Positions 18,144-40,370 of a DNA stretch of 64,000 bases are shown here, piece by piece (the stretch's first letter is position 1; every line of letters begins with the position of its first letter). Source of the stretch: Pseudodesulfovibrio profundus (GTDB lineage: Bacteria; Desulfobacterota; Desulfovibrionia; Desulfovibrionales; Desulfovibrionaceae). Below the pieces are notes generated by a model that was not told the origin of the DNA, made no database searches, and was given only the letters and a program-made list of their open reading frames with translations. Location of the stretch: NCBI RefSeq assembly GCF_900217235.1, contig NZ_LT907975.1, positions 1,587,001-1,651,000 of the forward strand, in the 5' to 3' direction. A program made the position numbers and the translations under genes.

Positions 18144-18852
18144 GGGGCTGTACCAGATAACTCCTTTGGGTTATCGGTATGGCAATGCGAAAAAGTCGTT
18201 TGAGCAAGGACAAGCAGCTTCGTTTAATCGAACATTTTGTGGCTGGCACGACAGCTCGTTGCGCTGCCGATCTGGTTGGTGTGAACGTCAAAACAGCCGC
18301 CTATTACTTTCACCGGCTCCGGGAAATCATAGCGGTAGAAGAGTCCTGTGAAGGGATGGATTTTGGCGAATTTGAGGTCGATGAGAGCTACTTCGGTGGC
18401 AAGCGAAAGGGCAAAAGAGGACGTGGGGCGGCTGGTAAGGTTCCTGTTTTTGGAATCCTTAAAAGGGGCGGGAAGGTCTATACACAGGTGATTCCTGATG
18501 CGAAAGGTAAAACCTTGCTTCCCATTATTCAGGAAAGAATCCAGCCAGACAGTGTGGTTTACTCGGACTGCTGGTATGGCTACAATGTCCTTGATGTGTC
18601 AGCGTTCAAACACTTCCGAATCAACCACTCGAAGCTGTTTGCAGATAGCCACAACCACATCAATGGAATCGAGAATTTTTGGAACCAGGCCAAACGCCAT
18701 ATGAGGAAATTCAACGGCATTCCAACCAAGCATTTTTCTCTGTTTTTAAAGGAATGCGAGTGGCGTTTTAATAACAGCAATCCGCGAAGCCAGTTTAAAC
18801 AACTGAAACAGTGGGTTAGAAGACATATGGGCTAGTTATCTGGTACAGCCCC
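18144..18852 (+). mobile_element. IS1595-family insertion sequence, left copy
   Basis: A 709-bp element with perfect 19-bp terminal inverted repeats beginning GGGGCTGTACCAGATAACT. It contains one transposase gene. The 8-bp flanks differ (TTGTGGTC on the left, TTTTAATA on the right), so this copy has no target duplication. This is what adjacent deletion or recombination with another copy would leave. It marks the left edge of the carbon-fixation island. Confidence 0.93.
18179..18835 (+). CDS. IS1595-family (ISXO2-like) transposase
   Basis: 218 residues. After an N-terminal helix-turn-helix, the ISXO2-like catalytic domain shows FEVDESYFGGKRKGKRG (first acidic residue), VYSDCWYGYN (second), and NGIENFWNQAKRHM (last). 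The protein is identical to the one from the inverted copy at 38461-39117, which points to a recently active element. Confidence 0.93.
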   Translation: MAMRKSRLSKDKQLRLIEHFVAGTTARCAADLVGVNVKTAAYYFHRLREIIAVEESCEGMDFGEFEVDESYFGGKRKGKRGRGAAGKVPVFGILKRGGKVYTQVIPDAKGKTLLPIIQERIQPDSVVYSDCWYGYNVLDVSAFKHFRINHSKLFADSHNHINGIENFWNQAKRHMRKFNGIPTKHFSLFLKECEWRFNNSNPRSQFKQLKQWVRRHMG

Positions 18853-18928: not shown

Positions 18929-19678
18929 TTAAGCTCTCCGCTGATAGATGGATTGTGCAGCAGCATGCCACGCCTCAAGATGACACATGGAAATTGGTCT
19001 TAACGTTCCGCCCAGCGTTGGGACACCATTTTCGAAACCATGGACAAGGGCTATTTCCTTCCCAAAGCTCTGATGTCGAGTGTATGCATTGGTCGTTACC
19101 ACGGTGGGAAGGCCTGCCTCAAAGGCAGCGTTCAACCCATTCTCGGAATCTTCGACCGCAAGGCACTCCAAGGGGTTCAACCCAAGCTGCCTCAATGCTT
19201 CAATGTATACATCAGGTGCAGGCTTCTTGTTTTCCACCTGATCACCGGCCATAATGACTTCCCAGTGCTCTCGCTGGAGCACTCCAGAATGGAAAAGAGC
19301 TTCGACATTGACCAGTGAGGTTGTCGTGGCGATGGCAAGCCGGTTTCCCCTTTGCACGGCTTCCTCGATGAGAGCTTCCACGCCCGGCCTCAGGCCGAGA
19401 CCACCGTTGCGCACGCTATGGTTATAGAAATCGGTCTTCACGGCGTGGATGTCTTCCGGCGTTTTTGGCATGCTTTCTTCGTCTATTCTGGACAGCTCCA
19501 TATAATGCCGGATTCGCTCCTTACCGCCTGTGACGTCGAGTAGCTTCAAATACGCCTCATGACTCCAATGCCAGTCAAGACCCGCGTCTTCGAATGACTG
19601 ATTAAAAGCCTTTCGGTGTAACTCCTCACTATCCACAAGAGTGCCGTCTACATCCCAGATAAGAGCCTCAAGTTTCAT
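18929..19678 (-). CDS. cbbY: HAD phosphatase, CbbY-like
   Basis: 249-residue HAD-superfamily phosphatase (beta-phosphoglucomutase-like subclass). Catalytic DVDGTLVDSEE is at residues 9-19, the motif II threonine in IATTTSL, the lysine in ENKKPAPDVY, and the metal-binding AVEDSENGL. In autotrophs CbbY removes phosphate from xylulose-1,5-bisphosphate, a misfire product that inhibits RuBisCO. Position directly after cbbM supports that role; a phosphoglycolate phosphatase (CbbZ) is the alternative. It is the last gene of the cassette, ending 77 bp from the IS1595 border. No clear terminator lies between them. Confidence 0.8.
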   Translation of the reverse strand: MKLEALIWDVDGTLVDSEELHRKAFNQSFEDAGLDWHWSHEAYLKLLDVTGGKERIRHYMELSRIDEESMPKTPEDIHAVKTDFYNHSVRNGGLGLRPGVEALIEEAVQRGNRLAIATTTSLVNVEALFHSGVLQREHWEVIMAGDQVENKKPAPDVYIEALRQLGLNPLECLAVEDSENGLNAAFEAGLPTVVTTNAYTRHQSFGKEIALVHGFENGVPTLGGTLRPISMCHLEAWHAAAQSIYQRRA

Positions 19679-19729
19679 AAAACCTCCCCATAAATAAGGA
19701 AGGGGCCGTAGCCCCTCCCTTGATCATTA

Positions 19730-21118
19730 TTAACCAAGTTGTTCGCGCCAACCGGGGTAGAACCGGTCTGCGTCTTGCGGGAAGGATTCAAATGCCCGAG
19801 CCAGTTCCTTATGCTCCTTGGCATATTCCACGAGATTGACTCCCTGGATCCACGCTTCATGCGACTGTCTCAGCGACAGCGCGCCTGCCGTGGGACCATC
19901 GACGTGCCCGAAAGCACCGCCGCCAGAGGTCTGGCAGATATTGGAATGGCCGAGGTTGTCGAAGAAGCCCGGCAGTCTCAGGGCATTCATGCCACCGGAG
20001 ATCATGGGTGTCGTCGCTTTCATACCGTACCATTTCTGCTTGAAATACGGCCCTTGGGCCTCTTCACGCTCGATCATGTAGGCCATGGCCTTGTCGCTCC
20101 TGTCGCCTTCCATCTTACCGAATCCCATGGTGCCGGTGTGGATACCGGATGCACCCTGGAGGCGAGACATCTTGCTCAGCACAAAGGCGGTATAACCGCG
20201 TTTGGCCTGGGGAGAGGTGACAGCGCCATGCCCTGCCCTGTGGTAGTGCAGGAACTGATTGGGGAAGTTCCTACGGGCGGTGGTGATGGAGGTCGGGCCT
20301 GCCACATATCCATCAACCAGGAAAGCAACCTGGTTTGCATTCTCACCAAACGCTTCGAGGATATACTCACCGCGAGCGATCATCTCCAGCGGATCATCGG
20401 CCGTTATGTTGGCCGAGAAGACTTTGGCTTCACCGGTCTCGTCCTGGGCGCGTTTCATGGCATCGGCAACGGCCGTGATGGTCTCCTTGAGAGGCGCAAA
20501 CACCTGGTTACCCTGGGGTTCGTCGTTCTTGACGAAATCGCCACCAAGCCAGAATTGGTAACAGGCTTCGGCAAAGGGTTTGGGACGCAAGCCCAGCTTG
20601 GGCTTGACGATGGTACCGACGATCATGCCGCCGTTTTCCGTGGGACGATCCAGCATACGCCAGAAGTCCGAGATATTCTTGGACGGACCGTCAAAGAGTT
20701 CCAGATACTGACGAGGCACGTAGAAATCATGCATCTTGGCGTAGGCCACATCACCCATGCCCTGGTTGTTACCGATGCACAGGGTCAGGAACGAGGCGAG
20801 CATGGCCCGACCGTCAATGATGTTGCGGTCAAAGAGTTCCACCGGATAGGCGATCTTCATCAACGAATCACCGTCTCCAACATCCTTGACTTCGTACACC
20901 AGGGCATCGACCCCTTTGGTGAAATCATCGGTGGTGCACACTTCAACGTTGGTGCCGGTGGATGATTCGGCTGCAAAGTGGGCTGCCACCTCGACATCAC
21001 CGTACCCATCGGCTGGTTTGAAAATGTAGGCGCAGAGGACGTGCCTGCCGTCGGCGATCAGCTTTTCTTCATTCAGGTCAAAGTTCACATAGCGATTGGT
21101 TTGGTCATATACAGACAT
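19730..21118 (-). CDS. cbbM: Ribulose-1,5-bisphosphate carboxylase, form II
   Basis: Fixes CO2 onto ribulose-1,5-bisphosphate to give two 3-phosphoglycerates. Start at ATG 21118 ([10 protein letters not shown]); the longer frame runs back into prk. 462 residues, matching form II dimers, and clearly of the Rhodospirillum rubrum type. Catalytic residues align with a +6 offset: K172 in VKPKLG, K197, D199 and E200 in [10 protein letters not shown] (carbamylated lysine and magnesium ligands), H293 in HYHRAGHG, loop-6 lysine K335 in MGFGKMEG, and S374 in ISGGMNAL. Nothing required is missing. The gene follows prk by 35 bp. Form II enzymes suit high CO2 and anoxia, consistent with a strict anaerobe. 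Confidence 0.98.
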
Positions 21119-21153
21119 GGTTGTCTCCTTTTGTCTCAGCACGTGTGTGCATC

Positions 21154-22080
21154 TTATGTGTTCATTTTGGCATTCATCAGGTGAAAACAGGTCAAAAGCT
21201 GAGTGATGCCAAGAGGATAGCTGACTTTTTTCTCCGAACCTTCGGTGTAGCAACCCACTCCATCAGTGGTCAGGTCGTCGACCTTGTCCAGATGGTCCAT
21301 GATGATGTCCATGAGCGTTTCTGCGGTCATCTGTTTGATGTTGCCCGTGATCTTGAGAATATCCACAGGCAGCCCTTCATCGCGACCTAAGGTGAACGTC
21401 AGACACTTCTCCTTGGTGCCCGGACGATGGTCGATGAACTCGGCAAAATCCGGATGATGAATGGTCGGCCTCAGGATGAGGTTGGTATTCAGCTTGGTAC
21501 CGGTTTCCTCTTCGGCTCCATCCGGGCGATAGAAATTGCAGACGATGTCGGCAAATTTTCGTTGCGGGCGGATGAAGTTGGTTGAGACTTCGATCCGCTT
21601 GTCCAGGGAAGCCTGAACCTCTTCACGGGTATAGCCACGTTTGACCGTATCCCGCTTGAACTTCCAGTCCACCCGGAGTTCCTCGTCCGGATCAAGATAG
21701 ATCTTGACGTCAAAGGCATCGCGCATCTTCTTGGTATAGAAGCCGAGCAGCCCTTCAACGATGACGAATTCCTTGGGCTCGACATAGACAGGCGGGTCAA
21801 AGTCGCCTGTGCTATGGTTGTAGACAGGCTTGAGGATCGCTTCGCCACGACGCAGCTGGTAAAAGTTGTGCTGCATGATGTCGATATGGTTGCAATCGGG
21901 ATGGAGGGCGGAGATATTCTTCTCGGCACGCTGCACCCGGTTGTACTTGTGATAGTCGTCGGAGCAGATGTTGGTCACTCGGTCCGGGCCGAGGATCTTT
22001 TCAATCCCAGCCGAGATCGTGGTTTTCCCGGCGGCCGAATCGCCCACTATGCCAAGCAATATTGGTCTTGTGCGTTGCAT
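21154..22080 (-). CDS. prk: Phosphoribulokinase
   Basis: Phosphorylates ribulose-5-phosphate to the RuBisCO substrate, the step that together with RuBisCO defines the Calvin cycle. 308 residues, the length of the bacterial octameric type. Walker A loop GDSAAGKTT at 13-21, SDDYHKYNR, the acidic segment [13 protein letters not shown], and the substrate loop RDTVKRGY are present. It lies 17 bp after glpX and 35 bp before cbbM on the same strand. Uridine kinase is a related family, but length and context favour prk. Confidence 0.96.
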
Positions 22081-22097
22081 GGGGTTCTCCCTTTTCT

Positions 22098-23090
22098 TTA
22101 ATCGTAATCGATGGAACTGATGCGCATGAGCTTGTCGAACCGATGAGCCGACTCGACATAGCGTACAGTACCGGTAAGGCCCCGCATGACGAGCGAGGTC
22201 GTTTTTGCCCCTTTGCCGGTGAAGTCGACGCCTTTGAGAAAGACGCCGTCGGTAATACCGGTGGCGGCGAAGAAAATATCGTCGCTGCTCACGAGATCCT
22301 CCATCTTCAATACCTGCTTGATGTCGCGACCGGCTTCCTTGACCCGTGCTTTCTCTTCCTCTGATTGGGGATCGAGCATGCCCTGCATCTCGCCTCCGAG
22401 GACACGAATTGCCGTGGCGGCCAGCACGCCTTCGGGGGTGCCGCCTGTGCCCATCATGATGTCGATACCCGTATCGGGAATGACAGCCATGAGTGCACCG
22501 GCCACGTCGCCATCCGTGTGCAATTGGATGCGCGCTCCGGTGGCACGAATGTCAGCAATGAGTTCTTCGTGCCGCTCCTTGTCCAGGACGAACACAACGA
22601 GATCTCTCACGTCCTTGTTCTTGGCCTGGGCTACCTTGCGTAGAGTTCGAGCCACTGGGTCCTTGATGTCGACCATCCCGACGGCTTCGGGCGGAACAAC
22701 AAGCTTGTTCATGTAATAGGCAGGGCCCGGATCATACATGCTTCCTTCAGGAGTCATTGCCACAACGGAAATTGCGTTGGGTCGTCCATTGGCAAGAAGA
22801 CGGGTTCCTTCCACCGGGTCCACGGCGATATCCATCCTGGGGCCGACGCCGGTGCCGACCGATTCTCCGTTAAAGAGCATCGGTGCTTCATCCTTTTCGC
22901 CTTCACCGATGACGACCCGGCCGTTGATGGCCATGGCGTTAAAACTGATACGCATGGCATCCACGGCAGCGCCGTCTCCGTCCTCTTTTTTACCAAGGCC
23001 AAGCCATCGGGCCGAGGCAAGGGCTGCGGCTTCGGTGACTCTGGCAAGGTCCAGGGCGAGGTTTCTGTCAGGCTGTCTTCTTGTCATCAT
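22098..23090 (-). CDS. glpX: Class II fructose-1,6-bisphosphatase (GlpX type)
   Basis: Dephosphorylates fructose-1,6-bisphosphate and, in many autotrophs, sedoheptulose-1,7-bisphosphate; no separate SBPase gene is present, so this one probably does both. 330 residues. Signatures are VIGEGEKDEAPML (metal site), DPVEGTRLLA, and IMMGTGGTPEGVLAA. It is the first gene of the glpX-prk-cbbM-cbbY unit, preceded by a structured leader and a sigma-54-like promoter. Confidence 0.96.
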   Translation of the reverse strand: MMTRRQPDRNLALDLARVTEAAALASARWLGLGKKEDGDGAAVDAMRISFNAMAINGRVVIGEGEKDEAPMLFNGESVGTGVGPRMDIAVDPVEGTRLLANGRPNAISVVAMTPEGSMYDPGPAYYMNKLVVPPEAVGMVDIKDPVARTLRKVAQAKNKDVRDLVVFVLDKERHEELIADIRATGARIQLHTDGDVAGALMAVIPDTGIDIMMGTGGTPEGVLAATAIRVLGGEMQGMLDPQSEEEKARVKEAGRDIKQVLKMEDLVSSDDIFFAATGITDGVFLKGVDFTGKGAKTTSLVMRGLTGTVRYVESAHRFDKLMRISSIDYD

Positions 23091-23167
23091 TTCATCTCCA
23101 CAAAAGTGTTTTCGCTATATGATTGAAAGAGAGGCAAGGGGCGGTGTGTTGCGGTCACCTTGTTTAT

Positions 23168-23260
23168 TCTGAGCATTCATCCTGGGGGGGATGACAGATT
23201 ACATCCCCTTGCCTCTCCCTCGGAGAGAGGTAGACGGCTTGCGGTAAGGCCGTCTCCTAG
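23168..23260 (-). promoter_or_regulatory. Structured leader with three consecutive hairpins before glpX
   Basis: On the minus strand the stretch between the predicted start site and glpX contains AGACGGC/GCCGTCT, then CCTCTCTCCGAGGGAGAGG, then GGGGATG/CATCCCC, one after the other. The block could be a mobile repetitive palindrome or a post-transcriptional regulator. No known riboswitch class was recognised. Confidence 0.45.
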
Positions 23261-23270
23261 AATGAATGAT

Positions 23271-23286
23271 TACAACTGCCGTGCCA
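23271..23286 (-). promoter_or_regulatory. Sigma-54-type promoter for glpX-prk-cbbM-cbbY
   Basis: Minus-strand TGGCACGGCAGTTGTA matches the sigma-54 consensus TGGCACG-N4-TTGCW at all fixed positions except the final C (T here); GG and the -12 G are correctly spaced by ten bases. It lies downstream of the terminator ending the PHP gene and about 180 bp before glpX. Inverted repeats TGTTC-T-GAACA (23291-23301) and TGTATACA (23323-23330) lie just upstream as possible activator sites. A sigma-54 activator gene is encoded 1 kb upstream. Confidence 0.6.
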
Positions 23287-23348
23287 CAATTGTTCTGAAC
23301 AGATGAATTGAGATTTAGTCTTTGTATACAGAAGGTTATTGAGTCGAC

Positions 23349-23401
23349 GAAAAAGAAAAGGCTCATCCGGATGTGCCGCAAGGGGCACACTCGGATGAGC
23401 C
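23349..23401 (-). terminator. Intrinsic terminator after the PHP gene
   Basis: Ten-base arms GGCTCATCCG (23360-23369) and CGGATGAGCC (23392-23401) enclose a further TGTGCC/GGCACA stem. On the minus strand they are followed by a T-rich run (23349-23359). It separates the activator/PHP transcript from the glpX promoter. Confidence 0.85.
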
Positions 23402-23433
23402 GTGTTTCTTAACTGTGCCGCCTGTGACACAGG

Positions 23434-24324
23434 TCAGTGCAGCACCCGCTCAAGGAACTGAGCCTCATGCGAAGTGATACCGTATTCACCGGGCAGCATG
23501 AGTCTCGTGTCTTCAAAAGGACCTATTGGATATCTACAATCAGACCCACCGGAGAAGAAGACGTCGGTGTTCTTCGTCAGAGACAAGGTCCGGGCCTGAA
23601 GGATCTCATTGCTCTCTTCCCCTGGATATCCGTTTTCACGGTAAGGGTAGACCGCCTCAATGCCATCGAGACCGGCCTCGGCAAGGGTTGCCATGAGCGG
23701 TCGCTGCTTTTCGGATGGCGACATGAACGGATGCGCCCAGATGGATACTCCTCCGACCCGGTGTATCAATTCGATGATGTCAACCGGATCGGGCAGGTGC
23801 AAGGCGGGCAGATCGGAATCAAGTCGTTCCTCAGCAATAAAACGCCCTGCGTCAATCATTGATGGAAACATACGCCTGGCCTGAACCATATACTGCACAA
23901 TGAATGTGGGGTGTGGGTCTCTCCCTGCAAATGCAGCGACGTTTTTACGGTTTATGGTCCCATCCCACGATTGCAACCGTTCGATGAGAACATGTGCACG
24001 TTGCAAGGTTTGCTCTCGTACCAAGGCAAAGCGAGATTCAAGTTTGGTTTGGTCCTTTGTGGTCAAGTCCAAACCGAAGCCAATGATGCTGGCGTCCCGG
24101 CATGAGAATTCGATGCCCAGCGCCAGCTTCAAACGCAGCTTGGCGGCATGAGTAAAGAGGGTTTCATCAGGAAATGCATCCTTTTCACATATGCCGATTC
24201 CCTGCAGCCCGTTTTGTCTTGCAAGAGTCAGCAGCAGTCTGCCGGGTATCTTGCTCTCCCATGAGCGGCCAGAGTGTGTGTGCATGTCAAAATGCACGGA
24301 TTGTTTCGTTGTTCGAGGGAACAT
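23434..24324 (-). CDS. PHP-domain phosphoesterase
   Basis: 296 residues with the PHP metal-binding layout: FDMHTHSGRS (HxH) at 12-21, GICEKDAF, ALGIEFSCRD, IWAHPFMS and a terminal GGSDCRYP. PHP proteins of this size include 3',5'-nucleoside bisphosphate phosphatases and RNase AM-like enzymes; the substrate here is unknown. The gene starts 9 bp after the sigma-54 activator, so the two are co-transcribed. A role in removing a signalling or inhibitory phosphate compound is possible but unproven. Confidence 0.8.
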   Translation of the reverse strand: MFPRTTKQSVHFDMHTHSGRSWESKIPGRLLLTLARQNGLQGIGICEKDAFPDETLFTHAAKLRLKLALGIEFSCRDASIIGFGLDLTTKDQTKLESRFALVREQTLQRAHVLIERLQSWDGTINRKNVAAFAGRDPHPTFIVQYMVQARRMFPSMIDAGRFIAEERLDSDLPALHLPDPVDIIELIHRVGGVSIWAHPFMSPSEKQRPLMATLAEAGLDGIEAVYPYRENGYPGEESNEILQARTLSLTKNTDVFFSGGSDCRYPIGPFEDTRLMLPGEYGITSHEAQFLERVLH

Positions 24325-24333
24325 GACATTATC

Positions 24334-25704
24334 CTACATCCCGTATTTTTTCATTTTTCTGTAAAAGGTCCGACGAGGGATCCCAGACATTCTGGAGGCT
24401 TCGCTGACGTTACCATCCGTCTCCTGGAGGTAGCGCTGCATCTCCTTCTTCTCGAAGTTCTCCATGACTTGGTCTTTCTTGGATTGGAAAACACTGCTGT
24501 TTTCCTGATCCTCTGCTGCGGGCTTTCCTACCGGACACCCGAAAGTACCGGAATCATCAATACGCAAGGCTACATCCTCAGGGCCGATAACATCGCCCTT
24601 GCACAGAATGGCAGCCCGTTCGATGACATTTTCCAGTTCCCGGACATTGCCGGGCCAGTCGTAGCGGCTCATGCACTCCAGTGCCTCGTCCGCAATGCCA
24701 GTCAGCCTTTTGTTCAACTTGGCCTCGGCCTTGGTTATGAAGTGATAAACCAGGTACGGGATGTCCATCATCCGATCCCTGAGAGGCGGAATTTCGATAG
24801 TGAAAGTATTAAACCGATAGTACAAATCTCGTCGAAACGTCTCGTTATCCATGGCAAATTCAAGATCACGATTGGTGGCTGCGATGACCCGCACATTGAC
24901 ATTCGTGGTTTCAGTACTGCCGACGCGACGAATCTCTCCCGTCTGAAGAAAGCGGAGCAGCTTGGCCTGCAACTCGGGCAACATGTCCCCGATTTCGTCC
25001 AGGAACAAAGTACCGCCATCGGCTTCTTCAAAGAGTCCCTTGCGGTCTTCCTCGGCACCGGTGAATGCACCCTTCTTATAACCAAAGAGTTCACTTTCCA
25101 TGAGCGACGACGTCAGGGCTGTACAATTGATTGAGATATAGGGACGACTGTTCAGGTGGCTCTGCTGGTGAATGGCCCGTGCAATGAGATCCTTGCCGAC
25201 CCCGGTTTCGCCCAACAACAACACTGTAGTCGGCGTGGGTGCAACACGTTCGACGAGATCCATGACCTCACACATCTGGATCGATTTTCCGATGATCCGG
25301 GTTTTTCCCCCGCGCTGCTCCATCTCTCGCTGCACTGCATGGAAGCGCCCCTCGTAGCGCGCTTTCTTGCGTAAAGAGACCGTCAGGAGACGGACCAAGC
25401 GTGCGGCCGCATTTTCAAGCACAACGGCGTGCTCAGGCTTGTTCTTGTTGATGTGTGTTGAAACATCATCGTTTTTCGAAGCATTGACGATGATGTCCAA
25501 ATTGGCTGCATCCACATAGGACGGCAGTTCATTGACCAACGGCACACCGATGTCCTTGGCGAGTTCGATGCTCGACGGGTCAGCCTGCATGTCCAAAAGG
25601 CAGGCTATCTTGACACCGTGCACATCCGCGATCGCCTTGACGAACGGGGCACATGTCTTCCCCGAACCTGCAACCAGGATCTGTATCTTGGTGTCTTTCC
25701 ACAT
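24334..25704 (-). CDS. Sigma-54-dependent transcriptional activator with Rossmann-like sensor domain
   Basis: 456 residues. Residues 1-100 are not a response-regulator, PAS or GAF domain; they look like the N-terminal half of an NAD(P)-dependent oxidoreductase ([15 protein letters not shown], then KIACLLDMQ and LDIIVNAS strands, and [14 protein letters not shown]). The AAA+ domain follows, with Walker A GETGVGKD 165-172, the sigma-54 contact loop GAFTGA 212-217, Walker [12 protein letters not shown] 230-240, and an arginine finger region. A Fis-type helix-turn-helix lies at 430-450. It starts after a clear GGAGGGAAT Shine-Dalgarno, inside the CBB cassette between gap and the PHP gene. It probably activates the flanking carbon-fixation promoters, perhaps in response to a dinucleotide or sugar phosphate. 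No CbbR (LysR) gene is present. Confidence 0.88.
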
Positions 25705-25783
25705 ATTCCCTCCATCGGCTGGGAGGCCTTTATAGGGGCCACGCTTATGCCGAATAATCGGGAATGCGAGTGACCCCTGTTTC

Positions 25784-26782
25784 TTACATCAGTGCAGCAA
25801 CCTTGCGAATAAGGCGAAGAAGCTGGTGGGTGAAGCTTGATTCATTGTCGTACCAGATAATGGTCTTGACCATCCGGTCTGCCATAACAGTGGTACATAG
25901 ACCATCCACCACGCCGCCATACGCCGAGCCAAGATAATCAGTCGATACGAGAGGCTCTTCCGAGTAGCCCATAACGTCCTTCAGGCTTCCTTCGGAGGCG
26001 GATTTGAGGGCGTTGTTGACGTCTTCTGTCGTGACGTCACAACTCACGTCTGCCACAAAATCCACGAGTGAAACATTGGGGGTAGGCACACGTACTGCCA
26101 TACCATCGAGCCTGCCTTCAAGGGCAGGGATGACCTGGCTCACGGCCCGGGCAGCGCCCGTGGTGGTGGGCAACATATTGACTGCACCGGCCCTGGCGCG
26201 TCTGAGGTCCTTGTGCGTGCCATCCAGCACTCGCTGACTCATTGTGTATGAGTGAATGGTGGTCATGAGTCCCTTCTCGATGCCAAAGGCCTCATGCAGC
26301 ACCTTGGCAACAGGAGCCAGACAGTTGGTAGTGCAGGACGCATTGGAAATAATCACATCGTTTTCGCTCAGAAGGTGATCGTTGACGCCCATGACTATGG
26401 TGGCATCACAATCTGGGCCTGGAGCACTGATAACCACTTTCTCGCAGCCGCAATCGATCATCTGTTCACAACTCATACGATCACGAAAGGCACCGGTGCT
26501 TTCAACGACGATATCGACGTCCCAGGCTCCCCAGCACCATTCGCCGGGCGCACAGCGAGTCACCACGACTTCATGATCGCCGACCATGAACCCATTGTTG
26601 GTGGCTTTTACTTCCTCATCAAAGGTTCCGTGAACCGAATCATATTTGAGCAGGTGGGCCAATTGGACATTGTCGGCGCGGGCATTGACCACAGCGAGTT
26701 CGTACCCTTCTTCCCTGGCAAGCAGCCTGGCAAGATAACGTCCGATTCGCCCGAAACCGTTGATACCTATTTTCACACTCAT
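25784..26782 (-). CDS. gap: Glyceraldehyde-3-phosphate dehydrogenase
   Basis: Reduces 1,3-bisphosphoglycerate in the cycle, reversible with glycolysis. 332 residues. GINGFGRIGR at the dinucleotide fold, the catalytic SNASCTTNCLAP (Cys near 152), HSYTMSQRVLDG with the catalytic His, and TGAARAVSQVIPALEGRLDG are present. At the end of the second strand the sequence is VNARADN, without the ND pair common in NAD-specific enzymes, so cofactor preference is uncertain. It stands between rpe and the activator, with about 320 bp of non-coding DNA upstream. Confidence 0.96.
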   Translation of the reverse strand: MSVKIGINGFGRIGRYLARLLAREEGYELAVVNARADNVQLAHLLKYDSVHGTFDEEVKATNNGFMVGDHEVVVTRCAPGEWCWGAWDVDIVVESTGAFRDRMSCEQMIDCGCEKVVISAPGPDCDATIVMGVNDHLLSENDVIISNASCTTNCLAPVAKVLHEAFGIEKGLMTTIHSYTMSQRVLDGTHKDLRRARAGAVNMLPTTTGAARAVSQVIPALEGRLDGMAVRVPTPNVSLVDFVADVSCDVTTEDVNNALKSASEGSLKDVMGYSEEPLVSTDYLGSAYGGVVDGLCTTVMADRMVKTIIWYDNESSFTHQLLRLIRKVAALM

Positions 26783-26982
26783 GATTGTCTCCTCAAGCGA
26801 CCGTGGCCGCCCTCGCTGTGCCCTTGTTGGCTTTACTTAGCCAATTCCCGGACTTTTACTGATGAATTCTCTTTCAATGGCCGATTCAACGTGGTGAACG
26901 GGGAGCGCGGTCATTCGTCGTTGGACAAAAGAACTCCCGCTGCCGTATACAGAAGCAACTTGAATGTTCATTGACTTGGCTC

Positions 26983-27079
26983 GTAGCCGTTGCTCCGCTC
27001 CGCCCTCGGCCCTTCGGGCCGCCCCTACGGGGACGGGCTACGCTCCACAACGGCTACGGCGAACCGCCTCTAAGGAGGC
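26983..27079. repeat. Multi-branched palindromic element between rpe and gap
   Basis: A ten-base outer stem, GTAGCCGTTG (26983-26992) with CAACGGCTAC (27048-27057), encloses GGCCC-TTCG-GGCC-type and CCCC-TAC-GGGG hairpins, giving a clover-leaf shape. A GCCTCTAAGGAGGC hairpin follows at 27066-27079. The remaining gap (26783-26982) shows no gene. It may be a repetitive extragenic palindrome or an mRNA-stability element between rpe and gap. Confidence 0.55.
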
Positions 27080-27098
27080 ACAAACTCGGACGCCGGGC

Positions 27099-27127
27099 TC
27101 CACCTTAAAATGACCGATCAGTGGTCC
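27099..27127 (+). mobile_element. Remnant of an IS3-family terminal end at the 3' end of rpe
   Basis: About 29 bp beginning TCCACCTTAAAAT and ending AGTGGTCC align with the right end of the complete IS3-family element at 37864-37893 (25 of 29 positions by eye). No transposase is attached. It supplies the stop codon and final residues of rpe, so an IS once inserted there and was lost imprecisely. Confidence 0.6.
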
Positions 27128-27851
27128 AAAGGATGGGGGGAGGCGCAATGGCCCCCCAACCGCACGCCTTTTGGTCAGCCCCTGCGCAGGCTGCCTCCAT
27201 AAAGGTTTCTAGCCGTTTGTCATACGGGGGTTCTCCGAAAAACGCCGAGCCGGATACGAAAACATCAGCCCCGGCATGATGAAGCTCAGCGATGTTGGCA
27301 GGGGTCACGCCACCATCCACCTGGATGAGGGTGTCCGCTTCATGCATCTTGATCATCCGGGCAAGGGTTCTGATCTTGTCGATGGAAAATGGAATAAACG
27401 ATTGTCCGCCAAAGCCGGGATTCACACTCATGACAAGGACCATGTACAACTGTGGCAACAAGTACTGAACTGCGCTCAAAGACGTGTGCGGGTTGATGGC
27501 TACTGCAGGTCGTACACCGTGATTTGCGATCTCGGCCACGGTACGCTCCAGGTGCGTCTCCGATTCGGCGTGAACACAAATGAGGTCGGCGCCAGCATCA
27601 GCGAATTCCTTGATGTAGCGACCGGGGTTATCAATCATGAGGTGTACGTCAAAGAACAGTTTGCTCTGCTTGCGACACGCTTTGATGACAGGCGACCCGA
27701 AGGTGATATTGGGGACGAATTGACCGTCCATGACGTCCCAATGGACCCATTCCACACCTGCATCTTCCAACATAGCCAGTTCTTCACCGAGTCGACTGAA
27801 ATCAGACGACAGAAGAGAAGGCGACAATATGACAGTATTTTCAACACTCAT
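27105..27851 (-). CDS. rpe: Ribulose-phosphate 3-epimerase with altered C-terminus
   Basis: Interconverts xylulose-5-phosphate and ribulose-5-phosphate, feeding prk. Start at ATG 27851 (MSVENTVILSPSLLSSDFS); the longer frame overlaps fba. 248 residues. Signatures HWDVMDGQFVPNITFG, FDVHLMIDNP, VMSVNPGFGGQSFI and IQVDGGVTPANI hold the metal ligands. The canonical fold ends near residue 220 (RLETFMEAA); the remaining Cys/Trp/Pro-rich tail is untypical and its last codons read into an IS3 end remnant. Catalytic residues are complete, so activity is likely. Confidence 0.93.
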   Translation of the reverse strand: MSVENTVILSPSLLSSDFSRLGEELAMLEDAGVEWVHWDVMDGQFVPNITFGSPVIKACRKQSKLFFDVHLMIDNPGRYIKEFADAGADLICVHAESETHLERTVAEIANHGVRPAVAINPHTSLSAVQYLLPQLYMVLVMSVNPGFGGQSFIPFSIDKIRTLARMIKMHEADTLIQVDGGVTPANIAELHHAGADVFVSGSAFFGEPPYDKRLETFMEAACAGADQKACGWGAIAPPPILWTTDRSF

Positions 27852-27861
27852 GATTCCCCCT

Positions 27862-28929
27862 TTACGTCCTCGCTGTCGGGGCATACTTCCCGGCAGCGTA
27901 CCCTTCGGCCATGGTCTCGTGATTGCGGGGTGTGATGGGCTCTGCCCAGCCGGCGGAACCAAAAGCCAGGAACCGAGACCTACAGACTTCCTTCATGGCC
28001 TTGGTCGCCTCGGAGAGGAACTTGCGCGGATCGAAATTGCCCGGATTTTCGGCAATGTATTTACGAACCGCACCAGTGGCTGCCAATCGCAGGTCGGTAT
28101 CAATATTGACTTTGCGCACGCCATGCTTGATGCCTTCCTGAATTTCGGTCACGGGAACGCCGTAGGTCTCGGGAATTTCTCCGCCATAATCATTGATGGT
28201 CTTGAGCCACTCTTGCGGCACCGAGGAAGAGCCGTGCATGACGAGATGCGTATCCGGTATGCGGGCATGGATCTCCTTGATCCGATCGATGGCCAGCACT
28301 TCACCGGACGGAGGGCGGGAAAACTTGTACGCACCATGGCTGGTGCCAATGGCGATGGCCAGGGCATCCACCTTGGTTTTCGCAACGAAATCGGCTGCCT
28401 GATCCGGATCGGTGAGCATCTGTTCGCGGGTCAATTTACCCTCTGCTCCGACACCGTCCTCTTTGCCTGCCGTTGCCGTCTCCAGAGATCCCAGCACGCC
28501 GAGTTCTCCTTCCACTGACACACCGCAAGCATGAGCCATGTCCGTAACTTTTTTAGTCACATCCACATTGTATTCATAGCTGGATGGGGTACTGGAATCT
28601 TCCATGAGAGAACCATCCATCATGACTGAGCTGAAACCATTCTGGATGGCCTGAACACAGACTCCAGGCGAGGCACCGTGATCAAGATGCAGGCAGACCG
28701 GTATATGGGGCCATTCCTCCAAAGCAGCCAGGATAAGATGGCGCAGAAAGACGGAACCGGCATATTTGCGCGCACCAGCCGAACTCTGAAGTATGACCGG
28801 GCTGTTGGTTTCGTCAGCAGCTTCCATGATAGCCCTGATCTGTTCCATATTGTTGACGTTGAAAGCAGGAACGCCATAGCCGTTGGCTGCTGCATGATCC
28901 AGCAACTGTCGTAATGAAATAAGCGCCAT
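27862..28929 (-). CDS. fba: Class II fructose-1,6-bisphosphate aldolase
   Basis: Zinc-dependent aldolase condensing triose phosphates (and, in the CBB cycle, erythrose-4-phosphate with DHAP). Start at ATG 28929 ([10 protein letters not shown]); upstream codons would overlap pyk. 355 residues, close to the CbbA subtype. Metal and catalytic motifs are [41 protein letters not shown] and VMHGSSSVP. Only 10 bp separate it from the start of rpe and 2 bp from pyk. Confidence 0.96.
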
Positions 28930-28931
28930 GA

Positions 28932-30398
28932 TTACTCCTCCGGATGTATCTCGGTTGGTTGTTCTATTCTGCAAATTCGCATCGAGTTGGTGCCGCCCTT
29001 TTCTCCGGCGGTATCCCCGCTGGTGGTGATGACCAGATCGCCTACCTGTGCAGCTCCGAGCCTGACGAGTTCTGCTGCTGCAGCCGAATGCTGCTGGGAA
29101 GCACAGACAGTCTCGGGATTGAAATCCACAGGGTAGACGCCACGATAGAGCGAGACTCGACGGCGGGTTTTTTCAATCTTGGACAGGGCGAAAATCGGGA
29201 TGCCAGAACTGATTCGGGACATCCATAACGCGGTTCCACCCGAATCAGTGAAAGCGCCAATAGCGGCGGTATCCAGGTGATTGGCCGCATACATGGCGGA
29301 CATGGCAATGGACTCGTCAATATGCGTAAAACGGGAATCCAGACGATGTCGGGAGCGGATTGCCACTTCCTGCCGCTCCGCCTCAAGACATATTTTTCCC
29401 ATGGCGGACACGGCCTCAGCCGGATACTTGCCCACAGCAGACTCTGCGGAGAGCATGACTGCATCCGTGCCGTCCAAAACCGCATTGGCCACGTCAAAGA
29501 CTTCGGCCCGTGTCGGAACCGGACTCAGGATCATTGAGTCCATCATCTGAGTGGCTGTGACAACGATCCGGTTGAGAGATCGGGCCCGCTTGATGAGCGA
29601 CTTCTGTACACCGGGAAGCTTGGCATCACCGATCTCCACACCGAGATCGCCACGCGCGATCATGATGCCGTCGGAAAGCTGAACGATTGTCTCCACATGC
29701 TCCAGGGCCTCGGCGCGCTCGATCTTGGAAAGAATGAATCCGTGCCAGCCAAGCGCGGCCATGAGTTCACGGCACTCATCAACATCTGCGGCATTGCGGA
29801 CGAATGAAAGAGCCAGAAAATCAGCATCCATTTCTGCCACGGCTCGCATGTCCATGCGATCCTTTTCAGTCAGAGCGCCGGCTGAAAGGCCGCCCGAAAG
29901 CAGGTTCACACCCTTGCCGCTGGAAAGGACGCCTCCAGTAACAACAGTGCAGTGAACCGCACCATCGACCACGTGGTCGACTTCGAGGATGCATTTACCG
30001 TCATCGAGAAGCAGGATACTTTCAGGGTCCACGTCATCAGACAAAGCTGAATAGGTAATACCAACCCTCTCGACGCTGCCCTCGTGCAGAGCGGTGTCCG
30101 GGTCAATGATAAAACTATCCCCTTCTTCCAAGGTAATTGATTCTTCCCTGAAACCACCGATGCGGATTTTTGGTCCCTGGAGATCGGCAAGGATCCCCAC
30201 AGTCCTGCCCTGCTCGTTGGCAATTCTCCTGACCAGTGCTGCCAATTTGACGTGATCGGCACTGTTCCCGTGCGAAAAATTAAGGCGCACGACATCGACA
30301 CCCTGACGGATGAGGTCGCGCAATGCGTCCTCATTGTCGGTTGCAGGCCCGAGCGTAGCCACAATCTTGGTTCTGCGAAGTCTCTGTTCCATACTCAC
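28932..30398 (-). CDS. pyk: Pyruvate kinase
   Basis: Makes pyruvate and ATP from phosphoenolpyruvate. 488 residues if the GTG at 30398 is used, or 486 from ATG 30392; both lie at the pgk stop. Signatures are [32 protein letters not shown], the catalytic lysine in [22 protein letters not shown] and [11 protein letters not shown]. Its inclusion in a Calvin-type cluster is unusual and suggests that fixed carbon is drawn off as pyruvate. Confidence 0.95.
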
Positions 30399-31570
30399 AT
30401 ACTTCGTTCTTCGAGAATGCCCACTGCGGGCAAAGTCTTGCCTTCAAGAAACTCCAGAAAAGCCCCGCCACCGGTCGAGATATAGGAGATGTCATCGCCC
30501 ACACCATACTTGTCGATAGCAGCTAGGGTATCTCCCCCTCCGGCAATGGAGTAGGCCGGGCTTTCCGCGATGGACATGGAAAGATCCATGGTCCCCTGGC
30601 CGAACTGGTCGAACTCGAAAACACCGACCGGACCGTTCCAGACGATGGTTCCGGCATCCTCCAACAATCGGGAATACAGCGAGGATGTCTTGGGACCGAT
30701 ATCCAAAATCATCTCATTGGCAGCGACTTTATTGACCTGCCGAGCAATGGGCGCGGCATCTTCGGAGAACTCCCGTCCACACACCACATCAAGCGGGATG
30801 GGGATTTCAACATCGGCATCGATGGCAACCTGCATCAGGTCGCGGGTAGCCTCAACCAAGTCCGGCTCAAAGAGCGAAGAGCAGATGTCGAAACCCGCGG
30901 CAGCAATGAAATTATTGGCAATACCACCGCCCACGATAAGCTTGTCCACTTTAGAGAGGAGCGACTCAAGTACCGTGAGCTTGGTTGAAACCTTGGCCCC
31001 ACCCACCACAGCCACCACAGGCGATTGGGGAGCCATGAATCCTCGCTCCAGTCCGGCCAGTTCCCTCATCAAGAGCGGCCCGGCACAGGCGACAGGCGCG
31101 AACCGGGCTACGGCGTGCGTCGACGCCTGAGCCCTGTGAGCCGTAGCAAAAGCATCCATGACAAAGGTGTCGCAGAGCACGGCCATGGCCTTACCAAGCT
31201 CAAGGTCATTGTCACTTTCTCCCTTGAGAAATCGAACATTTTCCAAGAGGACAACCTCACCGGGCTGTAAGGAAACGCCATTGATCCAGTCTTTCTCGAA
31301 ACGGACAACCAGTCCGAGCAATTCCGACAATCGATGAGCCACTGGCTCCAGAGTCATATCCGGGTCAAAGGTCCCTTCCTTTGGCCGTCCCAAGTGGGAC
31401 ATGATCATGACCTGGGCCCCGCGATTCAAGGCCGTTCGGATGGTCGGCAAGGCCGCCATAAGTCGTTTATCGCTCGTGATCTCGCCATCTGAAATCGGAA
31501 CGTTGAAATCCTCCCTTATGAGGACCCGCTTTCCGGCCAAATCGAGCTTTGACATCTCCAACATAACCAT
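30395..31570 (-). CDS. pgk: Phosphoglycerate kinase
   Basis: Phosphorylates 3-phosphoglycerate, the first reductive-phase step after RuBisCO. 391 residues. Substrate site [13 protein letters not shown] near residue 20, [20 protein letters not shown], and the nucleotide loop [13 protein letters not shown] are present. It overlaps the start of pyk and lies 12 bp after tkt. Confidence 0.96.
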
Positions 31571-31582
31571 CCTCCCCCTTGA

Positions 31583-33598
31583 TTAAGCGGCCATCTTCTT
31601 CCCGTTCATGACTCGTTTGACCAGCTTGACCAATGCATCGGGCGTGAACCCGAAATATTCGAACAATTCATTGCCCGGAGCAGATTCGCCGAAACGGTCC
31701 ATGCCCAGCACAGCACCTTCAAGTCCTACATACTTGCCCCATCCGCTCGTCACACCAGCCTCGACTGCCACACGAGTCGTGACATGAGGCGGTAAAACTT
31801 GATTGCGATAGTCTTCGCTCTGCCGTTCAAAGACCTCGACACACGGCATGGACACAACCCGGACATGGCTGCCTGTGGATTCCATAGTCATGGCGGCTTC
31901 CATGGCCAGGCCGACTTCGGACCCGGTGGCAATGATGATGGCGTCGGGAGTCGTGTCGCTGTCACGCAGGACGTATCCGCCACAAGACACCTGTTCGAGG
32001 GTTTCCGCAGACCGGGACTGATGCGGCAGAGCCTGGCGGGACATGATGAGAGATGATGGGCCGTCGTCGCGCTTGACCGACCGTTCCCAGGCAACTGCGG
32101 CTTCCACTGCGTCGCAGGGACGCCAAACATCCATGTTGGGAATCAGGCGCAGCGATTCGACATGCTCCACTGGCTGGTGGGTCGGTCCGTCTTCGCCAAC
32201 ACCGATGGAATCGTGAGTCAGGACGTAGAGAGTACGCAGCCCCATCAGGGCAGACATGCGCATGGCGTTGCGGGCATAGTCCGAAAAGACGAGAAATGTC
32301 CCACCATAAGGGATGAAGCCGCCATGCAGGACCATGCCGTTCATCATCACGGACATGGCAAATTCTCGCACGCCGTAATTCATGTAATTGCCATTCCAGT
32401 CAGTCGGGACAGCGATCTTGGAACCGGACCATCTGGTCAAGTTCGAACCAGCCAGATCGGCCGATCCACCAAAGAATTCCGGCAGCACCGGGGCCAACCC
32501 TTCAATGGCATTTTGCGAGGCCTTGCGAGTGGCCAGGCTTTCTGCCTTGGCATCAACACTGTCAACATAATTGGATGCGTGAGAGTCGAAGTCGTCAGGC
32601 AACTCGCCATTCATACGACGAGTGAACTCGGCAGCCAGTTGCGGATAAACCTTTTCGTATTCCTTAAAGCGGGCATTCCAGGAATCCTCTGCCCTGAAGC
32701 CAGATCCTTTGGCACTCCAGGAGGCATACACCAACTCCGGGATTTCAAAGGGTGGATGAGGCCAGCTCATGGCATCTCTGGCGCAGCTTATTTCGTCATC
32801 GCCGAGAGGAGCACCGTGGCATTTTTCCGTACCACAGACATTGGGAGCACCCTGCCCGATGACCGTCTTGCAGCAGATGAGAGTCGGCCTGTCCGGCTCA
32901 CTCCGTGCCTTTTCAATGGCGTCCTTGATGGACTCAGGATCATGACCATCCACACCGGGAACGACGTGCCAGCCATAGGACTGGAATCGACGCGGCGTGT
33001 CATCCGTGAACCAACCATCGACGCAGCCGTCGATGGAGATGCCGTTGTCGTCGTAAAAAGCGATGAGCTTGCCGAGTTGCAGGGTGCCAGCCAGGGAACA
33101 CGCCTCGTGGGAGACGCCTTCCATCATGCATCCATCCCCCATGAAGACATAGGTGTGGTGGTCCATGATGGTATGACCGTCTTGGTTGTATTGGGCGCCG
33201 AGAACCTTTTCGGCCACGGCCATGCCCACAGCGCAGGCGATGCCTTGCCCAAGAGGCCCGGAGGTGGATTCGACGCCCGGCGTCATTCCAAGCTCCGGAT
33301 GCCCCGGGGTTTTAGAATTGAGTTGCCTGAACTGCTTGATGTCATCGATGGTGACGTCATAGCCGCTCAAGTGCAGCAATGAGTAGAGGAGCATCGAGCC
33401 ATGCCCGTTGGAAAAAACGAATCGATCCCTGTTTGCCCAGCTGGGATTGGCCGGATTGTGGACCAGATAATCGTTCCACAGAACCTCGGCGATATCGGCC
33501 ATGCCGAGTGGAGCACCCGGATGTCCGGAATTGGCTTTTTGGATGGCGTCCATGCTCAGAGCACGGATGGCATTGGCAAGTTCACTGCGTTGAGGCAT
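31583..33598 (-). CDS. tkt: Transketolase
   Basis: Thiamine-diphosphate enzyme rearranging sugar phosphates in the regeneration phase. 671 residues, standard length. N-terminal [18 protein letters not shown], thiamine-binding [13 protein letters not shown] with the following DDNGISIDG, and the pyrimidine-domain [17 protein letters not shown] are all intact. The gene is preceded by a 43-codon ORF and a sigma-54-like motif, and followed closely by pgk. Confidence 0.97.
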
Positions 33599-33628: not shown

Positions 33629-33760
33629 TTAGAGGATCCGGGAATAGACACGCTCGTACACACCGCAGAGCTTCATGGCGGTTCGGTTATGCAGGCCGCA
33701 GCTTTTCAGGCGGCAGAAGACGTGCAGCGGATTCAGGTAGTGTCGTAATGTCTCTTTCAT
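33629..33760 (-). CDS. Small hypothetical protein upstream of tkt
   Basis: A 43-codon frame with a strong Shine-Dalgarno (GGGAGGACACC before ATG at 33760). The product is basic, begins MKETLRHYLNPLHVFCRLK, and ends VCGVYERVYSRIL-like with Leu, Arg and Cys rich content; no membrane segment or known domain. It ends 31 bp before tkt on the same strand, so it is probably co-transcribed. Function unknown. The excellent ribosome site and clean spacing are the main support. Confidence 0.55.
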   Translation of the reverse strand: MKETLRHYLNPLHVFCRLKSCGLHNRTAMKLCGVYERVYSRIL

Positions 33761-33797: not shown

Positions 33798-33813
33798 ATC
33801 AAAAGACGTGCCG
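33798..33813 (-). promoter_or_regulatory. Possible sigma-54-type promoter for the tkt side of the cassette
   Basis: Minus-strand CGGCACGTCTTTTGAT fits TGGCACG-N4-TTGCW with two mismatches, including the -12 C. Spacing of GG to the -12 G is right. A predicted start about 25 bp before the small ORF is plausible. CTGTGCCA (33900-33907) and TGGCACAG (33955-33962) form an inverted repeat upstream that could bind an activator. Confidence 0.35.
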
Positions 33814-33974
33814 ACGACTTCGCCTGAAAGATGGAAGAAGACAACCACATTTATTACAGATGGTTACTGCGAAACGAGAGAAAAGAGTTCTTCTCATGAC
33901 TGTGCCATTCCTGACCCAGCAATTCAGAGCATGTGCCGTGAGCTGGGCCGCAAGTGGCACAGCGTGAGGGAATG

Positions 33975-35192
33975 TTATTTGGCGAAGAAATTGATGTAGG
34001 CCAGGAAATCGTCCAGGTCTTCCGAGGGAAGCGCCGAGCCGAGCAGAACACCGGAAATCCAACCGGCATTGTGGGGACGTCGGGAAGCACTTCGAATGAG
34101 GCTCCCTATGGCTTTGGGGGTTCTCAACCCCATGAGGCGGCCGCCCATTTCAAGGGAAGGACCGATCTCCTGCCACAGGTTGTATGGATACTCGCGCAAG
34201 GCGGCTTCGTCCCAGACATCACCAGCGCACGCCTTGGCAAGCACCTGTCCGGCTATCCGGGCAGAGATAATGGCATTGGTTGTGCCGTCTGAACTGCAGG
34301 GATTGACCAGACCTGCTGCGTCACCGACGAGAAGGAAGCCGTCGCCATGAATTTCACGCATGGGATTACCCACCGGCAACACGCCCGTTTCGATCTCACC
34401 CATCTGCTCGGCAAAAGCGAAACGTTCCTTGAGTTCAGGAGATTCAAGTGCCCGTAAAAGGGCCTGCTTGGGCTTAATATTCCCTTGCTTGACCACGTCC
34501 ATGGGAAGGGCCAGGCCGACATTGGTCTGGCTCGTTTCAGTGGGATGGAACCAGACATAACCGGGCAGAACCTCTTCAGGGAAATGAATCTCGATGTTCC
34601 CCCGGATGCCTAGCACCTGACGATAATACCCACGGACAGCCAGAGCACGATACTCACTGTAGCGGGGCATCTTCATCTGCTTAGCTACGACTGAATCGCT
34701 GCCGTCAGCACCGACTATGACCTTTGCAGTCCAGGATACTTCGCGCCCGCCGCCACGTTCGCCCTTCACTCCACAGGCCTGTCCATTTTTAGTCTGGATC
34801 TCAGTCACCTGGCACCAATCGACAATCTCCACTTCCTCTTCAGCCGCAGCTTCCATCAAAAGAGCATCAAGAAGAATTCTGCGACAGATAATTCCGGCCT
34901 CGGGAGTATCTTTGTCGATCTTGAGTATCGGCACGGTCACAGAACTACCGTCGGCAGAGTGGTAGGCGATCTTTTGAACCGGGGTATGGGGGATTTCCAA
35001 TAGGCGTGGCAGAAGTCCCAAGACGTTGAACTCGGCAATCGCCAACGAAGAGAGCGCGTCTCCGCAGGGTTTTTCCCTTGGGAACTTTTTCTGGTCGAGC
35101 AAGAGGACATGCAAGCCCTGCCTGGCAGCATGGATTGCTGTACACGCCCCTGCGGGCCCTGCTCCAACTACTATGACATCATAATCTGGCAA
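33975..35192 (-). CDS. FAD-dependent oxidoreductase, geranylgeranyl-reductase family
   Basis: 405 residues. N-terminal dinucleotide-binding GAGPAGACTAIHAARQG, the family motif FPREKPCGDALS near residue 40, VIVGADGSDSVVAKQ, and FLLVGDAAGLVNPCSSDGT show a flavoprotein of the geranylgeranyl reductase/halogenase group. These reduce isoprenoid chains of lipids or quinones or act on other substrates; the target here is unknown. It is the most upstream gene of the minus-strand cassette. About 215 bp separate its stop from the small ORF. Confidence 0.82.
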   Translation of the reverse strand: MPDYDVIVVGAGPAGACTAIHAARQGLHVLLLDQKKFPREKPCGDALSSLAIAEFNVLGLLPRLLEIPHTPVQKIAYHSADGSSVTVPILKIDKDTPEAGIICRRILLDALLMEAAAEEEVEIVDWCQVTEIQTKNGQACGVKGERGGGREVSWTAKVIVGADGSDSVVAKQMKMPRYSEYRALAVRGYYRQVLGIRGNIEIHFPEEVLPGYVWFHPTETSQTNVGLALPMDVVKQGNIKPKQALLRALESPELKERFAFAEQMGEIETGVLPVGNPMREIHGDGFLLVGDAAGLVNPCSSDGTTNAIISARIAGQVLAKACAGDVWDEAALREYPYNLWQEIGPSLEMGGRLMGLRTPKAIGSLIRSASRRPHNAGWISGVLLGSALPSEDLDDFLAYINFFAK

Positions 35193-36783: not shown

Positions 36784-36809
36784 GGCCAGTTCAACGCAAG
36801 GAATTTGTC

Positions 36810-39362: not shown

Positions 39363-39407
39363 TTTGTCCCGGGGCATTGTCCCGAACTATTATTGAAGGA
39401 GAAATCC

Positions 39408-40367: not shown

Positions 40368-40370
40368 TCA

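Follow-up and report, generated by a model that had tools for sequence, protein, structure and literature searches.

A putative Calvin-cycle island with a sigma-54 activator of its own, probably spread horizontally among sulfate reducers, in Pseudodesulfovibrio profundus

A Calvin pathway in the genus Pseudodesulfovibrio is already on record: the available portion of PMC6137086 (2018) describes, for a Pseudodesulfovibrio metagenome-assembled genome (MAG) from Olkiluoto deep groundwater, a reductive pentose phosphate pathway whose RuBisCO and phosphoribulokinase (PRK) were detected in the metaproteome, so that the pathway is not new to the genus and has independent expression evidence in a relative. 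In what is available of two further reports, RuBisCO clusters from vents are accompanied by LysR regulators and the activases CbbQ and CbbO (PMC5506194), and Desulfovibrio desulfuricans, with a genome devoid of RuBisCO, uses the reductive glycine pathway (PMC7547702); the corresponding portion of a JCM survey (PMC12999727) places Dissulfurimicrobium under Thermodesulfobacteriota, and its sole mention of a word starting with ‘Desulfo’ is a reference. Here we describe a cassette of Calvin-cycle genes in a stretch of 64,000 nucleotides, referred to as the window, which belongs to the genome of Pseudodesulfovibrio profundus (4.2 Mb, three contigs). The literature searched yielded no report on Desulfovibrio profundus and RuBisCO, or on Humidesulfovibrio and the Calvin cycle, and sulfate reducers of this family, the Desulfovibrionaceae, are generally considered to rely on less costly routes where they fix CO2 at all. 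We suggest, with a probability of about 0.68, that the cassette is a horizontally spread, chimeric Calvin-cycle island controlled by its own sigma-54 activator via two promoters.

The cassette (window 18929-33598; Table 1) is transcribed from the minus strand in the order tkt, pgk, pyk, fba, rpe, gap, the sigma-54 activator gene, a PHP-domain gene, glpX, prk, cbbM and a HAD/CbbY-like gene. A preliminary description had recognised a near-complete Calvin cassette in an apparent member of the Desulfovibrionaceae, and both the family assignment and the near-completeness are borne out: profile models (NCBIfam cut-offs for cbbM, prk, glpX, gap, rpe, fba and tkt, Pfam cut-offs for pgk and pyk) recover all named genes, intact and on one strand, and tpi is located elsewhere in the genome along with a second gap, two full-length NiFe hydrogenase large subunits and one short match. 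Its cbbY call holds as far as a HAD phosphatase is concerned (PF13419); the cbbY identity is less certain, since general HAD models alone passed, and ‘HAD phosphatase, CbbY-like’ is the safer label. The sigma-54 activator, the PHP-domain gene, a 43-codon open reading frame (ORF) before tkt and an FAD oxidoreductase gene are additions to that description.

By its sequence, the cbbM product is a form II RuBisCO. Against the form III model TIGR03326 it scores 272 bits, under the cut-off of 497, and its nearest solved chains are RuBisCOs including the R. palustris and R. rubrum types, which we take to be form II (5c2c is labelled Form II). In an alignment to 7t1j over 457 residues, read by eye, cbbM retains motifs including KPKLGL at what are presumably catalytic residues, and prk retains GDSAAGKTT and DDYH, which we take to be the Walker A and a further motif of PRK, in line with the catalytic residues noted earlier for both enzymes. 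The PRK is of another type than class I of the proteobacteria: the class I proteobacterial model NF011997 gives 41 bits against a cut-off of 362, the nearest solved chains are deposited as ‘cyanobacteria specific phosphoribulokinase’, and the best two matches among plasmids (∼42%), annotated phosphoribulokinase, come from Mycobacterium and Allomeiothermus records. Next to prk stands cbbM, both in the window and in each of the eight full-length family loci, and the broken copy in genome G052 is without prk on its contig. This pairing, together with form II rather than form III, argues against a RuBisCO that serves nucleoside or pentose salvage without a cycle, as archaeal form III does. Such a role would fit the PHP-domain phosphoesterase-like gene within the cassette, as well as genome G235 (L275:4628-6943), where activator and prk stand together beside genes for a PfkB kinase and a TRAP transporter and no cbbM match was reported; with the PHP gene not found in the cassettes examined from genera g37, g35 and g46, however, we consider it very improbable.

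The preliminary description had proposed searching the family for cbbM, and this search returned 10 of 288 genomes in 4 of 44 genera (nine above the cut-off, and one fragment at the edge of a contig), a sporadic rather than family-wide occurrence. Five genomes in a first set of 60 relatives had a match, including the fragment in G052, which belongs to another family of the same order, and in a phylum sample of 395 genomes 22 matched cbbM at E 0.001, the form II cut-off being passed by the window’s own copy only. Given so few matches in both samples, cbbM is rare and scattered. The N-terminal domain of the activator follows it closely: 12 of 285 family genomes reach at least 129 bits, namely the ten cbbM carriers, G228 and G235, and six more match at ∼30 bits or less, so the activator gene is nearly specific to the cassette. 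G228 (67% complete) carries cassette genes on two contigs without a cbbM match, and G221, a genome in which neither cbbM nor the activator was matched, carries tkt, a partial pgk and the FAD gene together on one contig. The G052 locus (L102:303-1520), with a cbbM match to the C-terminal part only, cbbY in two overlapping pieces and fba near, looks like a decayed cassette.

Horizontal acquisition of the cassette, likewise part of the preliminary description, is well supported, because cbbM is sporadic, is nested among form II sequences mostly of Pseudomonadota, conflicts with a species marker and in one genome, G004, lies in a Tn7-like setting. A tree of 88 RuBisCO rows was built from the window, the eight full-length family copies, the G052 fragment, two form III-like outgroup rows and 76 other database loci (the best 80 of 296 matches minus four repeats of family copies). 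It unites the sulfate reducers and Desulforamulus putei (Bacillota) in a single group (94/88, or 89/89 when the G052 fragment is included) nested in form II rows, the majority of them from Pseudomonadota, the surrounding branches being moderately supported (82/85, 84/71) and the outgroup very distant. The cbbM of D. putei (L016) is 83% identical, and the adjoining prk, tkt, rpe and glpX are far more distant. In a tree of the species marker mreB, g1 stands with g37 and g40 (99/94) and g46 outside, whereas the cbbM of G260 (g46) groups with g1 (100/99). Holding g1 and g37 together on cbbM, prk and glpX was rejected in an approximately unbiased test (p-AU 1e-5) that was chosen with the cbbM tree already known; in the tree of these three genes the group of G260 and g1 is not starred (83/95). 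The identities to the window point the same way for G260 (mreB 86%, mreC 52%, cbbM 90%), and are 89%, 54% and 82%, respectively, for G223 (g37); G260 may have been either donor or recipient. Of the trees suggested earlier for each cassette gene, the one for cbbM and the joint test of cbbM, prk and glpX, set against mreB, speak for transfer. Old vertical inheritance within the family, followed by repeated loss and without any horizontal movement, would account for the like gene content across genera and for the single sulfate-reducer group of cbbM, but it is at odds with the marker conflict, with the gap between mreC and cbbM identities in G260, with a member of the Bacillota inside the group and with the Tn7-like genes around the G004 cassette, and we regard it as very unlikely.

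In G004 the Tn7-like element (C1 about 2.729-2.776 Mb; L300, L162, L095, L163) lies next to a SIS-domain gene and comprises, in this order, tnsA, tnsB, tnsC, a split tniQ/tnsD interrupted by an IS3 element, tnsE, a few other genes and the cassette. Genes tnsA, tnsC, tnsD and tnsE were recognised by Pfam, and tnsB by its position and a match below the cut-off (20.3 vs 21.7 bits). Two mismatch-free copies of a 17-base repeat stand at the tnsA end, and two more, in inverted orientation, lie past the cassette; no matching 5-bp target duplication was seen at ends placed by eye (TCTGG vs ACCCG). Relatives of tnsC, tniQ/tnsD and tnsE were not found in the other loci searched; the Tn7-like element was seen in G004 only and is not in the window. 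Near the cassettes of G198 and G196 lie a phage-type integrase and a transposase, respectively. A second Tn7-like end (TGTGGGAG, then three similar 20-base repeats) stands at about L163:1576 of G004, just past an IS3 element, and two Tn7-like elements may be nested or neighbouring.

In the window itself, two 100% identical, inverted IS1595-type copies enclose the cassette, an arrangement suggestive of a composite transposon that brought it in. We give this explanation next to no credence and have dropped it as a candidate: the right copy is among the 23 that carry an 8-bp target-site duplication (TSD) of their own, out of 26 copies whose flanks were read and 30 full copies genome-wide, and the flanks of the left copy (window 18144) are reciprocally exchanged with those of the copy at C1:2402796 (L283), as TTGTGGTC and TTTTAATA. 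Because of this swap of 8-bp flanks, the left edge of the cassette is the junction of an inversion of ∼0.8 Mb and not an insertion site; the empty insertion site was not found. Adjoining C1:2402796 are homologs (84% over 236 residues and 40% over 103) of the two genes that in G022 have a radical-SAM gene as their neighbour. A third IS1595 copy without matching duplication is present at L281, and two integrase-type genes (PF12835, PF00589) lie just past the right copy (window 39393-41954).

Comparison of the individual genes suggests that the island is chimeric, with foreign parts next to native-like ones. The nearest gamma- and betaproteobacterial tkt copies close to cbbM share 62-65% identity with that of the cassette, whereas the second tkt of G022 and G004 shares 43-45%. 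The reverse applies to gap (66% to the host’s second gap, 43-48% to four Pseudomonadota copies), glpX (64% to the second copy in G022 and G004, 45% to Pseudomonadota copies near cbbM at two loci) and rpe (65% to the second copy in G260, 42-48% to Pseudomonadota copies near cbbM), which appear native-like. For fba (71-75%), pgk (56-62%) and pyk (51-59%) the comparison was with the nearest gamma- and betaproteobacterial copies near cbbM alone, second family copies not being in hand, and their origin is less sure.

The putative regulator has the AAA+ domain (PF00158, 233.9 bits) and the Fis-type helix-turn-helix (HTH; PF02954, 54.9 bits) of sigma-54 activators, with the loop motif GAFTGA in the window copy and GSFTGA in two g37 copies. 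Its residues 1-118 are predicted to adopt a Rossmann fold of the GFO/IDH/MocA-like NAD(P)-binding type, with a glycine motif GxG(K/R)TC in six copies; by sequence, this domain matches solved structures weakly (best E 0.0012, ribosomal protein S2). No LysR domain was found by Pfam in 13 proteins, the 12 of the cassette and the FAD neighbour; the search did not extend to a CbbR elsewhere in the genome.

Candidate control sites lie before both glpX and tkt. When no more than one mismatch and a spacer of 0-12 were allowed, TGTGCC and GGCACA were matched 30 times in ten stretches from nine genomes (179,712 bases). The spacer is 6 in 23 of these matches; 21 of the 23 lie in the 420 bases upstream of glpX, of tkt or of the FAD gene, and the other two farther upstream of tkt. 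Before glpX two such sites stand 42-44 bases apart in six of nine cassettes; with G228, where the distance is 41, paired sites 41-44 bp apart are found in seven of ten. In a background of 524,243 bases from other stretches TGTGCC-N6-GGCACA occurs twice, one occurrence (L165:670) being the tkt-upstream site of G260 that was counted already. In the whole host genome only two pairs of repeats less than 50 bases apart exist, one before glpX and one before tkt; it is these tandem pairs alone that stand out genome-wide. In 12 loci (239,652 bases) the sigma-54-like pattern TGGCAYG-N4-TTGTA was matched eight times, always as a single occurrence before glpX; eight of the ten cassettes with an available glpX upstream region have it, and it is absent from the background.

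Building on the genes, their distribution, the evidence of transfer, the conserved sites and the predicted domain fold documented above, it is tempting to outline how the island might work. Form II RuBisCO and PRK would fix CO2 onto ribulose bisphosphate, the products of pgk and gap would reduce what is formed, and those of fba, glpX, tkt and rpe, together with chromosomal tpi and probably rpi, would regenerate the acceptor. Transcription would start at two promoters, one before glpX for a presumed glpX-prk-cbbM-cbbY operon and one before tkt for a presumed tkt-pgk-pyk-fba-rpe operon. Both would be turned on by the island’s sigma-54 activator, which may bind the paired TGTGCC-N6-GGCACA sites, located roughly 100 bases ahead of the promoter, and might answer a signal, perhaps the NAD(P)H state, via its Rossmann-fold domain; the resulting flux might be autotrophic or mixotrophic on H2 and sulfate. 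We see nearly even odds that the island is, in this full sense, self-contained and transferable, that is, a Calvin cycle with its own sigma-54 switch, in which the Rossmann domain reads the NAD(P)H state and opens two promoters through paired repeats in place of CbbR.

Several observations weigh against this proposal. Cofactor binding by the Rossmann domain is unsure because the glycine motif is degenerate (GPTPRL) in the two g35 copies. Three of nine cassettes have a single repeat site before glpX, TGTGCC-N6-GGCACA is absent from the G235 activator-prk locus and the G221 tkt contig, TGGCAYG-N4-TTGTA is not found before glpX in two g35 cassettes, and the -24/-12 candidates before tkt are weak only. 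Individual repeat sites show no enrichment across the host genome (27 places with no more than one mismatch), and a reversed control pattern gave more rows (48/51 vs 21/22). No cbbQ or cbbO activase was recognised among the proteins scanned, and the ATP cost of the Calvin cycle is high for a sulfate reducer. A genome-wide regulon derived from single repeat sites was also considered and is unsupported, the counts being below the reversed control.

Form II enzymes in purple bacteria often serve as an electron sink or save carbon, and with the high ATP cost it appears quite possible, although we would tentatively bet against it, that the cycle is real but works mainly as an electron sink or in mixotrophic carbon saving on organic substrates rather than in net autotrophy. 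A Rossmann-fold sensor would suit redox control, and in the G198 (g35) cassette genes for a pyridine-nucleotide oxidoreductase and a 4Fe-4S protein (L099:5331-6880) lie between tkt and fba, where the window has pgk and pyk. However, g1, g35, g46 and G216 of g37 have all retained tkt, fba and rpe for regeneration, and the available portion of PMC6137086 documents expression of RuBisCO and PRK by a relative in deep groundwater with abundant hydrogenase genes. The preliminary description was right about the cassette and its acquisition, and the autotrophic ability that it proposed is putative.

Table 1. Features of the Calvin-cycle island and its surroundings (window coordinates).
Feature	Position	Strand	Basis or remark
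tkt, transketolase	31583..33598	-	TIGR00232 967.6 bits, cut-off 682
pgk, phosphoglycerate kinase	30395..31570	-	PF00162
pyk, pyruvate kinase	28932..30398	-	PF00224/PF02887
fba, class II aldolase	27862..28929	-	TIGR01521 602 bits, cut-off 496; start = inner ATG
rpe, ribulose-phosphate 3-epimerase	27105..27851	-	TIGR01163 277 bits, cut-off 213; start = inner ATG
gap, type I GAPDH	25784..26782	-	TIGR01534 393 bits, cut-off 367
Putative sigma-54 enhancer-binding activator, N-terminal Rossmann-fold domain and Fis-type HTH	24334..25704	-	PF00158, PF25601, PF02954; alignment; predicted fold
PHP-domain protein, accessory, in some cassettes only	23434..24324	-	PF02811 23.1 bits, just below cut-off 26.4
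glpX, class II fructose bisphosphatase, perhaps acting on sedoheptulose bisphosphate too	22098..23090	-	TIGR00330 381 bits, cut-off 259
prk, phosphoribulokinase, NF005655 type	21154..22080	-	371 bits, cut-off 236
cbbM, form II RuBisCO	19730..21118	-	NF010002 854.2 bits, cut-off 489; start = inner ATG
HAD phosphatase, CbbY-like	18929..19678	-	PF13419
Candidate upstream site 1 of glpX, TGTGTCACAGGCGGCACA	23414..23431	-	repeat search
Candidate upstream site 2 of glpX, TGTGCCCCTTGCGGCACA	23372..23389	-	42 bp from site 1
Candidate -24/-12 (sigma-54-like) site before glpX, TGGCACGGCAGTTGTA	23271..23286	-	pattern search
Candidate upstream site 1 of tkt, TGTGCCACTTGCGGCCCA	33944..33961	-	repeat search
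Candidate upstream site 2 of tkt (weaker), TGGGTCAGGAATGGCACA	33901..33918	-	43 bp from site 1; missed by stricter pattern
Weaker candidate -24/-12 site before tkt, CGGCACGTCTTTTGAT	33798..33813	-	pattern search
43-codon ORF between tkt promoter region and tkt	33629..33760	-	kept in cassettes
FAD-dependent oxidoreductase	33975..35192	-	PF01494; homologs adjoin tkt in several relatives
IS1595-type element at cbbY end	18144..18852	+	unmatched flanks, inversion junction
Identical IS1595-type element, separate insertion	38444..39152	-	own 8-bp TSD TAAATCTA
IS3-type element	36472..37658	+	copies with 97-98% identical proteins flank G004 cassette

Among the accompanying genes, the 43-codon ORF is present in all six cassettes with an available tkt upstream region and has no Pfam match. 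It belongs to a widespread family of small proteins with members in 137 of the 285 family genomes; several of the remaining copies adjoin unrelated genes (some of them presumably cobU-like, as named by eye), and a role of the ORF as a Calvin-specific regulator is unsupported. A homolog of the FAD oxidoreductase was not found at the G260 locus. A special NADPH preference of the cassette gap is unsupported, its VNARA motif being present in the genome’s second gap as well.

Such an island, recurrent, transferable and equipped with a dedicated sigma-54 regulator, would provide a concrete genetic handle on CO2 fixation in sulfate reducers, and suggests a pathway that was assembled from foreign and native parts and then moved between genera. 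If true, the known regulation of RuBisCO genes would extend beyond the LysR family; we found no report of sigma-54 control of RuBisCO genes among the papers listed for the literature searched, outside of which most subscription papers fall. Relative to the known pathway, a dedicated sigma-54 activator with candidate paired sites that travels with the cassette looks new.

It remains to place the island among the systems already described. The reductive glycine pathway of D. desulfuricans (PMC7547702, as far as available) likewise represents CO2 fixation in a related sulfate reducer, but is an unrelated pathway. The element around the G004 cassette shares with Tn7 transposons tnsA, tnsC, a split tniQ/tnsD, tnsE, a tnsB assigned by position and TnsB-type end repeats, and differs from them in that no matching 5-bp duplication was found. 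With the Olkiluoto MAG, likened here by the description in the available portion of PMC6137086, the window shares the genus and a pathway with RuBisCO and PRK, whereas a gene map, a regulator and a transfer analysis are given here and not in that portion. The form II operons of Pseudomonadota (Rhodobacter, Rhodovulum and gamma- and betaproteobacterial cbbM loci) have cbbM products 71-81% identical to that of the window among the best 80 of 296 matches; in contrast to them, the island has another PRK type, native-like gap, glpX and rpe, a putative sigma-54 activator instead of a LysR regulator, and no recognised cbbQ or cbbO. Finally, as in the LysR/CbbR-controlled cbb genes described in the available part of PMC5506194, a dedicated regulator gene stands beside the RuBisCO genes, and it is in the family of that regulator, the type of promoter and the binding sites, as predicted here, that the island of P. 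profundus would take a course of its own.

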